Shown in pieces: positions 34,173-36,294 of a stretch of DNA of 45,638 nucleotides. The position numbers and the translations under genes are program-made. The stretch spans positions 1 to 45,638 of the forward strand of contig JAIOXV010000006.1 in the NCBI GenBank assembly GCA_021741465.1, read 5' to 3'. The notes below the pieces were generated by a model. The model was not told where the DNA came from and ran no database searches. It was given only the letters and a program-made list of their open reading frames with translations. Source of the stretch: Paracoccaceae bacterium. GTDB lineage: Bacteria; Pseudomonadota; Alphaproteobacteria; Rhodobacterales; Rhodobacteraceae. Position 1 is the stretch's first letter; every line of letters starts with the position of its first letter.

Positions 34173-35141
34173 ATGGACCAGAGATCAGGCCAAAAGCGCG
34201 CAGTCGACTACCTTTATCCTACGATTGAACCCTTTGACCAAAGGGTGATCGAAGTGAGCGACGGTCATCGGGTGTTTGTCGAGCAATGCGGCAACCCGCA
34301 GGGCGTGCCGGTGCTGGTATTGCACGGGGGGCCCGGGGGTGGGTGCAGCCCGGCAATGCGCCGGTATTTCGACCCCAGCCATTACCGCGTGGTTCTGTTT
34401 GACCAGCGCGGCTGTGGCCGTTCACGCCCGCATGCCAGCGTCGAGGCGAACACAACTTGGCATCTTCTGGACGATATCGAAACCATTCGAAATCTGCTTG
34501 AAATAGACCAATTCGTTCTGTTCGGGGGGTCTTGGGGTGCAACACTGGCCCTGATCTATGCGATCAAATTCCCCGAACGGGTCTCTGCGATGGTTTTGCG
34601 CGGCGTGTTCTTAATGACCCAAGCCGAGTTGGACTGGTTTTATGGCGGCGGTGCGGGGGCTTTTTACCCAGAGCTTTGGCAGCGTTTTCTGGCCCCTATC
34701 CCGGACGACGCGCCGACACGCCCGATTGACGCCTATCACCGCTTGCTGTTTTCAGGAAACCTTGCCGAAGAAATCCGCGCCGGGCGGGCATGGAGCGGTT
34801 GGGAAAATGCGCTGGCTTCGGTGCATGGCGACGGCACCATGATGGACGGGCCCGCCGAATACGCGCGCGCCTTTGCTCGGCTTGAGAATCATTATTTCGT
34901 CAATGGCGGATTTCTGGAAAGCGATGGCTGGATTTTGGCCAATGCCCCAGCCATCGCACATATTCCCGCAACCATCGTTCAGGGCAGGTTCGATATGATC
35001 TGCCCGCCCACCGCTGCCTGGAAACTGGCGCGGCTTCTGCCAAAGGCGCGGCTGCATATGGTTCCCATGGCCGGGCATGCGCTTTCAGAGCCGGGCATCT
35101 CTGAAGCGCTTGTTCACGCGATGAACAACCTGCGCGGCTAA
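34173..35141 (+). CDS. pip: Proline iminopeptidase (alpha/beta hydrolase, S33)
   Basis: 322 residues from ATG 34173, chosen because AGGA (34164-34167) is better spaced for it than for the adjacent ATG 34170. It removes N-terminal proline from peptides. Marks: [22 protein letters not shown] (oxyanion region HGGPGGG), [15 protein letters not shown], nucleophile Ser in [23 protein letters not shown] with the catalytic Asp, and the His in AGHALSEPG. Length matches bacterial Pip enzymes (about 310-320). Cytoplasmic, no signal peptide. Confidence 0.95.
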
Positions 35142-35192
35142 AATCGTCTTTTCGGGGGTTGAATTGCCGATCGCGCTCTCCATCTTAAGCAA

Positions 35193-35310
35193 GCGGACCG
35201 GGCCCCTCTGACGTGAGAACGTGATGTCGGACCGCATCGAGCGCGCTCGATGTCATGCCCGGACCTTCGGACAAGACCTTCGGCGCCCCCATGCGAGAAA
35301 GGTCTGAGCT
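35193..35310 (+). promoter_or_regulatory. Structured 5' leader of the terC-family gene with RBS-sequestering hairpin (candidate riboswitch or RNA thermometer)
   Basis: Four elements follow each other. GCGGACCG (35193-35200) pairs with CGGACCGC (35228-35235) with one A-A mismatch, enclosing ACGT-GAGA-ACGT (35211-35222, a GNRA-type loop). ATCGAGCGCGCTCGAT (35236-35251) is a perfect palindrome. The nine-base sequence GACCTTCGG occurs twice (35262-35270 and 35275-35283). AGACCTT (35274-35280) pairs with AAGGTCT (35299-35305), which contains the terC ribosome site AAAGG, eight bases before the GTG. The first GACCTT copy could pair with the same AAGGTC, giving two alternative folds. TerC-family genes often have a manganese (yybP-ykoY) riboswitch, but its GGGGAGUAG signature is absent here. 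Confidence 0.55.
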
Positions 35311-36294
35311 GTGGAATTCCTAACGTCTGTGTTTCTGGGTACGCCGGTCTGGATGTGGCTTACCTTCATCAGTCTGGTCATTGGCCTGTTGGTGCTTGAT
35401 TTGGGCGTTCTGCACAAAGACGGCGCGCAAGAGATTGGCGTGGCCGAAAGCCTGAAGCTGTCTTCCATGTATATCGCCCTTGGCCTTGGCTTTTCCGGCT
35501 TTGTCTGGTGGCAGATGGGCTGGGATGCCACCGCAAATTATGTGACGGCCTTTGTCGTTGAAAAGACACTGGCGCTGGACAACATCTTTGTCATCGCGCT
35601 GATCTTCGGGTTCTTCGCCATTCCGCGCGCCTATCAGCACCGGGTGCTGTTCTGGGGAATCTTGGGGGTGATCGTGTTGCGCGGGATCATGATCGGTCTT
35701 GGGGCAACGCTGGTGGCGCAGTACAGCTGGATTCTGTACATCTTCGCTGCCTTCCTGATCTTCACCGGCATCAAGATGCTGCTGATAGCCGATAAAGAGC
35801 ATGACATCGGCGAAAACGGCATGGTTCGGCTGCTGCGCCGGCTTTTCAATGTCACCGAAGGGCTGCGCGGAACGGCGTTCTTTGTCACCGAGCCAGACAA
35901 GACCGGCAAGCTGACCCGTTTTGTCACGCCGCTTTTTCTGGCGCTGGTGATGATCGAGTTTGCCGATCTGGTCTTCGCCGTTGATTCGGTGCCGGCTGTT
36001 TTCACCATCACCACCGATCCGTTCATCGTTTACACCTCGAACATCTTTGCGGTCCTTGGCTTGCGCGCGCTTTATTTTGCTTTGGCGGCCATTCTGCACC
36101 GCTTTGCCTATTTGAAATATGCCCTGGCGGTTCTGCTGATCTTTATCGGGTCCAAGGTTTTCGTGGCGGATCTGATGGGCTGGGCAAAGTTTCCGCCGTC
36201 TTTGTCGCTCAGCATCACTTTTGCCATCCTTGCTGCCGGATTTGCGGTTTCCATGTGGAAAACCCGCGGGCAGTTGGCGGTTCAAAAGGACTGA
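35311..36294 (+). CDS. TerC-family integral membrane protein (Alx-like, probable metal-ion handling)
   Basis: 327 residues from GTG 35311 with AAAGG at 35298-35302. About nine membrane helices. Family marks with acidic residues inside helices: VVEKTLALDNIFVIALIF near 87 and EFADLVFAVDSVPAVF near 214, the two symmetry-related metal-binding stretches; also HRVLFWGILGVIVLRGIMI and YLKYALAVLLIFIGSKV. Members such as Alx and MeeF/MeeY export manganese or assist metal loading of exported proteins. The leader in front suggests control of translation by a ligand or ion. It is the only gene of its transcript before aroC, 66 bases on. Confidence 0.92.
   Translation: MEFLTSVFLGTPVWMWLTFISLVIGLLVLDLGVLHKDGAQEIGVAESLKLSSMYIALGLGFSGFVWWQMGWDATANYVTAFVVEKTLALDNIFVIALIFGFFAIPRAYQHRVLFWGILGVIVLRGIMIGLGATLVAQYSWILYIFAAFLIFTGIKMLLIADKEHDIGENGMVRLLRRLFNVTEGLRGTAFFVTEPDKTGKLTRFVTPLFLALVMIEFADLVFAVDSVPAVFTITTDPFIVYTSNIFAVLGLRALYFALAAILHRFAYLKYALAVLLIFIGSKVFVADLMGWAKFPPSLSLSITFAILAAGFAVSMWKTRGQLAVQKD

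Follow-up and report, generated by a model that had tools for sequence, protein, structure and literature searches.

The window, the whole stretch of 45,638 nucleotides analysed here, contains a terC/alx gene whose product scores 381.4 bits against TIGR03718 (cut-off 246.4). The elements of its leader are collected with the gene in Table 1. A tRNA gene lies at 820-891 on the minus strand (RF00005, 69.9 bits).

Table 1. The terC/alx gene of the window and the elements of its leader.
Feature	Coordinates	Strand	Details
terC RNA aptamer-like domain	35190-35239	+	Rfam RF03067, model positions 1-59 of 59
Helix P1	35195-35233	+	GGACCGG (35195-35201) with TCGGACC (35227-35233), A-A mismatch inside; Rfam consensus structure
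Helix P2	35211-35222	+	ACGT (35211-35214) with ACGT (35219-35222), loop GAGA
Hairpin P3	35234-35253	+	GCATCGAG (35234-35241), loop CGCG, CTCGATGT (35246-35253)
Alternative helix P1alt	35198-35262	+	CCGGGC (35198-35203) with GCCCGG (35257-35262); excludes P1
Duplicated nonamer GACCTTCGG	35262-35283	+	Copies at 35262-35270 and 35275-35283
Shine-Dalgarno sequestering hairpin	35274-35305	+	AGACCTT (35274-35280) with AAGGTCT (35299-35305); predicted fold
terC/alx, TerC/Alx family membrane protein	35311-36294	+	GTG start; TIGR03718, PF03741

The leader belongs to the orphan family RF03067

To identify the leader element, the whole window was searched with cmscan. RF03067, the terC RNA, matched at full length with 50.7 bits (E 5.9e-6), above the gathering score of 39.9 bits that defines membership. 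The leader also qualifies by compensatory changes in P1 and P2 (alignment of 32 leaders) and by location, with a TerC-type gene on the same strand 3' of the RNA. In a permissive Rfam search of 34900-35500 up to E 10, RF03067 was the sole match, and a narrower Rfam search of the leader added only sX9, at 14.6 bits against a cut-off of 44. The manganese-sensing yybP-ykoY family (RF00080) was matched neither in 34900-35500 up to E 10, nor in the window at its gathering score, nor in the source genome (82% complete), which holds one RF03067 match. Membership in yybP-ykoY is ruled out by these searches, bearing out an earlier note on this DNA that had found the yybP-ykoY signature missing. That note's suggestion of a different class did not hold, because the segment is RF03067, a catalogued cis-regulatory candidate and no new class; the leader is a new member of this orphan family, in a form richer than the Rfam model, and probably acts as a switch on a gene for metal or ion transport.

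The founding paper of the terC RNA is reportedly Weinberg et al. 2017. A literature search that reached few subscription papers returned nothing on RF03067, and nothing on "terC motif" together with riboswitch. The likeness of the leader to the terC RNA lies in the full-length match, P1 and P2, the conserved loops and the place before a TerC-family gene, whereas P3, the partner competing for P1 and the Shine-Dalgarno hairpin are additional to the 59-position model. With yybP-ykoY the leader shares its position and target family, as a leader of alx/terC-type genes, and, according to PMC9603457 on E. coli alx, a proposed role as an ON switch for an ion-handling membrane protein. The pH-responsive leader of E. 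coli alx, which is cited in PMC5770649 and PMC9603457, is placed by the latter in yybP-ykoY; the window leader, by contrast, falls outside that family, which precedes mntP in the same bacterial family.

Conservation of the RNA with terC/alx and of its structure in relatives

RF03067 occurs in 35 of 198 genomes of the same family. Full Alx genes above the TIGR03718 cut-off number 14, in 13 of these genomes, and by coordinates the terC RNA lies directly 5' of 13 of them, with 69-118 bases between the RNA and the first profile-matched Alx residue. The sole full Alx gene without the RNA is a second copy in one genome (G021). The leader is therefore conserved with its gene, contrary to the outcome that the earlier note had named as refuting its reading (terC kept while the segment is not). 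At genus level the RNA is present in 3 of 4 genomes and at class level in 52 of 385 sampled genomes. As a control, the laboratory strain of Caulobacter vibrioides also gave an RF03067 match.

Related loci were collected by two routes, the Rfam model and the pattern CCGGGCCCCTCTG-N-GATGTCGG. Since the pattern fixes the motif letters, their invariance is partly by construction; among the best-scoring 59 loci fetched by the Rfam model, window apart, the loose motif is absent only in L175. We call leaders of the window's form, with P3, type B. A loose filter passed 59 leaders, 35 of which had a recognisable TerC start, and removal of two with an unclear P3 (L016, L142) left 33 type B Alx leaders. 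The P3 ends of L008 and L010 and the start of L100 were set by hand. Alignment A1 (32 leaders) omits L173, which has a long P2, and alignment A2 of the platform omits L126.

Across the 32 leaders, P1 is paired in 100% of cells, with a double change at 2 of 6 pairs in one sequence each (L008 and L021); P2 is paired in 96.7%, with double changes at 5 of 6 pairs, and P3 in 98.9%, with double changes at 3 of 6 counted pairs. Taken together, 98.6% of cells are paired, compared with 21-38% in slid controls, and 10 of 18 pairs show a double change, with 38 double-change cells versus 7.8 in shuffles. The compensating base changes that the earlier note had wished to see in related leaders are thus present. 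Its eight-base-arm stem with one A-A mismatch was confirmed by computed check and is P1 prolonged outward (GCGGACCG at 35193-35200 with CGGACCGC at 35228-35235), and its 16-base palindrome (ATCGAGCGCGCTCGAT, 35236-35251) is contained in P3, within the 5' arm of which the Rfam model stops. By comparison with relatives, where its loop has 3-9 bases, the predicted P3 is a conserved extra hairpin outside the Rfam model. A covariance model that includes P3 gives the window 83 bits, partly by construction, the window being among the model's sequences.

Folding energy alone sets no part of the leader beyond chance: z was -1.32 for 35185-35330 (18 of 200 shuffles as good), 0.06 for the platform at 35240-35330 (97 of 200) and -0.82 for the Shine-Dalgarno hairpin region (38 of 200). 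What raises the segment above chance, on comparative grounds, is the RF03067 match together with the compensatory changes in the 32 related leaders.

A predicted alternative helix would compete with P1

In 30 of the 33 type B Alx leaders, a P1alt partner with at least 6 contiguous pairs is present, versus about 7 expected from shuffles; some leaders carry variants (GGGUCCGG or GGGGUC) with complementarity kept. The control strand showed no excess (percentile 0.537). Folding energy prefers P1alt to an enforced P1, or rates the two equal, in 31 of 33 leaders (mean advantage 6.9 kcal/mol), and the minimum energy fold of the window contains P1alt. For growing transcripts of the window, the predicted probability of P1 is approximately 0.75 at the completed aptamer and then falls unsteadily during the emergence of P3; after GCCCGG has been transcribed, the probability of P1alt climbs to 0.99. 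Over the 33 leaders, mean P1 is 0.46 with the aptamer alone and 0.13 through P3, where it exceeds 0.5 in a single leader; P1alt exceeds 0.5 in 22 leaders once its partner is out. Cognate pairing of P1alt gave z -1.13, with an aptamer strand, CCGGGC, that is invariant, partly by the search pattern; covariation is uninformative for this helix because of that invariance. Among a further 19 leaders with P3, counting the weak hairpin of L142, the partner shows no enrichment (8 with at least 6 pairs, 5.2 expected).

The earlier note had drawn its two exclusive folds from the duplicated GACCTT within a nine-mer. The nine-mer repeat is there (Table 1), but 79 of 2000 dinucleotide-shuffled leaders also contain an exactly duplicated nonamer, which is near chance, and in the congeners L024 and L200 the nonamer is not exactly repeated. 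The two folds are accordingly not a conserved feature, the nonamer is ruled out as the key element, and it probably has no function of its own. The better supported alternative is the pairing of CCGGGC with GCCCGG against P1.

The Shine-Dalgarno hairpin and its proposed link to the aptamer

The predicted seven-pair hairpin that buries the Shine-Dalgarno sequence, present as the earlier note had described it, holds AAGG before the GTG at 35311 with a stability of -12.9 kcal/mol. In the 33 leaders, cognate arms pair at a mean of -14.74 kcal/mol versus -12.36 kcal/mol for exchanged partners (z -5.24, 0 of 2000 permutations); P2 as a control gave z -0.15 in the same test. Against their own shuffles, the mean percentile is 0.244, with 13 of 33 leaders under 0.05, and in 26 of 33 the Shine-Dalgarno sequence is less open than the mean of the shuffles. 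The window's own percentile of 0.19 is unremarkable as a single case, whereas the group of 33 is not. RNAalifold found no consensus structure in the sequence-based platform alignment A2.

Does the choice between P1 and P1alt reach the ribosome site? Enforcing P1 rather than P1alt hardly changes Shine-Dalgarno opening (0.298 versus 0.284); the mean difference is approximately 0.013, with P1 giving more opening in 11 of 33 leaders and less in 2 (Wilcoxon p 0.024). An antisequestor that would link the aptamer to the Shine-Dalgarno sequence, GUCA.GCC with GGC.UGAC (drawn in the window as GUC..CCGG with UCGG..GAC), was rejected, with cognate z -0.53, percentile 0.392 and 0 of 33 leaders under 0.05. 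As a translational riboswitch, then, the leader has support for P1 versus P1alt and for the Shine-Dalgarno hairpin each, while their coupling is unsupported in the cognate and enforced-fold tests. We infer the coupling of the aptamer to the ribosome site, and by its anatomy the leader is likely to switch translation. Of the layout proposed in the earlier note, a translational riboswitch or thermosensor, the structured and probably translational cis-regulatory leader stands; the long unpaired stretches of the aptamer, invariant from one bacterial class to another, make a pure thermosensor unlikely.

Leaders without P3 and a probable pseudoknot

Leaders without P3, which we call type A, number 136 distinct sequences. 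A limit on loop length left 125 of these, and 52 of 57 type B leaders, for a test of P2-loop complementarity. In type A, the P2 loop tends to be complementary to a downstream segment (mean percentile 0.369, standard error 0.026; 23 of 125 under 0.05, about 6 expected), whereas type B shows no such complementarity (0.481, 0 of 52 under 0.05). In L015, L116, L169, L037, L033 and others without P3, a segment a short way ahead of the ribosome site complements about 7-9 bases of the P2 apical loop, for instance CUUGCGAC with GUCGCAAG in L015 and CUCUGCGG with CUGCAGAG in L116, where the segment adjoins the Shine-Dalgarno sequence. A cognate pairing test gave z -6.64 for type A, a value inflated because GC-rich genomes are compared with GC-poor ones, so that the own-shuffle test is the fairer figure. 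The P2-loop pairing of type A is likely to be a pseudoknot absent from the Rfam structure line, and it looks like an output that is replaced in type B.

Six terC RNAs before Alx-type genes come from Pseudomonas records (L032, L084, L090, L094, L097 and L105). Their P2 loops may pair over the Shine-Dalgarno sequence and start codon; the comparison of cognate (-10.95) with non-cognate (-9.69) pairing of P2 loop and Shine-Dalgarno sequence is suggestive only.

Target genes and the manganese question

A downstream ORF could be assigned for 174 of 181 leaders and fell into 26 clusters; near-identical leaders were kept in these counts, and another gene may lie ahead of an assigned ORF. From a Pfam scan of one representative each of 21 clusters, the targets are TerC/Alx (81 ORFs), DUF475 (25), a second TerC type (9), DAGK/YegS (7), DUF4112 (7), Zn-ribbon TFIIB (7), BI-1 (4), Na/Ca exchanger (4), TerB (4 plus two single cases), MnhE (2), DUF2076 (2), Tim44 (2), DUF465 (1) and NhaA (1, behind a small ORF); the rest have no assignment. 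Three clusters with TerC-matching representatives hold 115 of the 174. The small ORF followed by NhaA lies behind the terC RNA of L061, and in L009 the RNA stands before an MnhE-type Na+/H+ antiporter subunit gene. Together, Na+/H+ antiporters, Na/Ca exchange and Alx would point to cation or alkaline stress.

The gene mntP was found by tblastn in none of 190 distinct terC-RNA downstream stretches of up to 1500 bases; as a positive control, each of the five query loci was recovered by the others. Among the 198 same-family genomes, 5 carry RF00080, one match being below its cut-off, and it precedes mntP in all five. Two genomes hold both RNAs before different genes, the terC RNA standing before DUF475 in G092 (L023) and before alx in G150 (L013). 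The two RNAs thus share out genes, which hints at different signals and, for the terC RNA, at one other than manganese. The hint is a weak one, since two RNAs may sense one ion yet control different genes. In E. coli, the leaders of alx and mntP are jointly responsive to Mn2+ and alkaline pH (PMC9603457).

Proposed mechanism and alternatives

We consider it fairly probable that the leader of the terC/alx mRNA carries an RF03067 candidate riboswitch in a Rhodobacteraceae-type Alx form with the Shine-Dalgarno hairpin as output. An ion or pH signal would hold the P1/P2 fold during RNA synthesis; without the signal, GCCCGG would invade P1 as soon as it is transcribed, giving P1alt. The choice between the two would be passed on, in what we infer as the connecting step, to the Shine-Dalgarno hairpin and would set translation of TerC/Alx. 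Most likely the signal would turn the switch ON, as with E. coli alx; that signal is probably a cation or an alkaline condition, perhaps not Mn2+. More tentatively, the family as a whole could be a riboswitch class for a non-Mn2+ signal (alkaline pH, or monovalent or divalent cation stress) that serves a scattered ion-homeostasis regulon (TerC/Alx, DUF475, NhaA, MnhE, Na/Ca exchanger, BI-1, TerB) beside the Mn riboswitch. It would use two output platforms, a P2-loop pseudoknot near the ribosome site or, as in the window, P3, a P1 competitor and a Shine-Dalgarno hairpin.

That the terC RNA forms a second class of manganese riboswitch, one increasing TerC/Alx at Mn2+ excess in the role of yybP-ykoY in alphaproteobacteria, seems possible but somewhat doubtful to us. 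TerC family genes are also yybP-ykoY targets (E. coli alx, PMC9603457), and TerC-matching clusters make up most of the assigned downstream ORFs. This is opposed by the absence of mntP from the terC-RNA downstream stretches, by its consistent place behind RF00080 in the same family and by the two genomes that carry both RNAs before different genes. To our knowledge, NhaA, MnhE, the Na/Ca exchanger and BI-1 are not typical Mn genes either, which we count against a manganese signal.

That P1alt is instead the native fold, part of a three-way junction with an extended P2 and P3 in a constant, static or protein-bound element that does not switch, is rather improbable, even though its energy advantage over, or tie with, P1 in nearly all leaders and its place in the window's minimum energy fold would suit such a junction. 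P1 is a curated Rfam helix, its complementarity is kept through the double changes in L008 and L021, and leaders of the other type keep P1 though they have no partner to compete with it. We regard an RNA thermometer, in which heat melts the Shine-Dalgarno hairpin, as very unlikely: the moderate stability of that hairpin and the retention of its pairing in relatives would fit, but the invariant aptamer (CCGGGCCCCTCTG ... GATGTCGG) and P3 would be left unexplained, and Rfam searches of the leader up to E 10 returned no thermometer family. Least credible of all is an operator in the DNA, bound by a transcription factor, in place of an RNA hairpin. The palindrome is perfect over 16 bases in the window, but in relatives the arms covary, and the loop varies in length as noted above and is mostly not palindromic, as is expected for a hairpin.

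For the favoured riboswitch reading, the target list, the absence of mntP and the explicit output structures make both ligand and mechanism testable in a culturable alphaproteobacterium. The comparison gives the terC RNA, an orphan riboswitch candidate, a P3 for its Rfam structure and a likely output hairpin.

Further occurrences of the terC RNA

Divergent pairs of terC RNAs, on opposite strands and approximately 100-130 bases apart, occur at L161 and L170 (G236:C2:1489503-1489712 and G325:C9:125403-125616) and at G324:C157:2785-3024; in L161 and L170, one RNA of the pair is directed towards TerC/Alx and its partner towards a DUF4112 gene. In G324, G460 and G543, as many as four RF03067 matches per genome were seen. 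The terC RNA pattern also appears in eight stretches of a viral contig collection (L201-L208).
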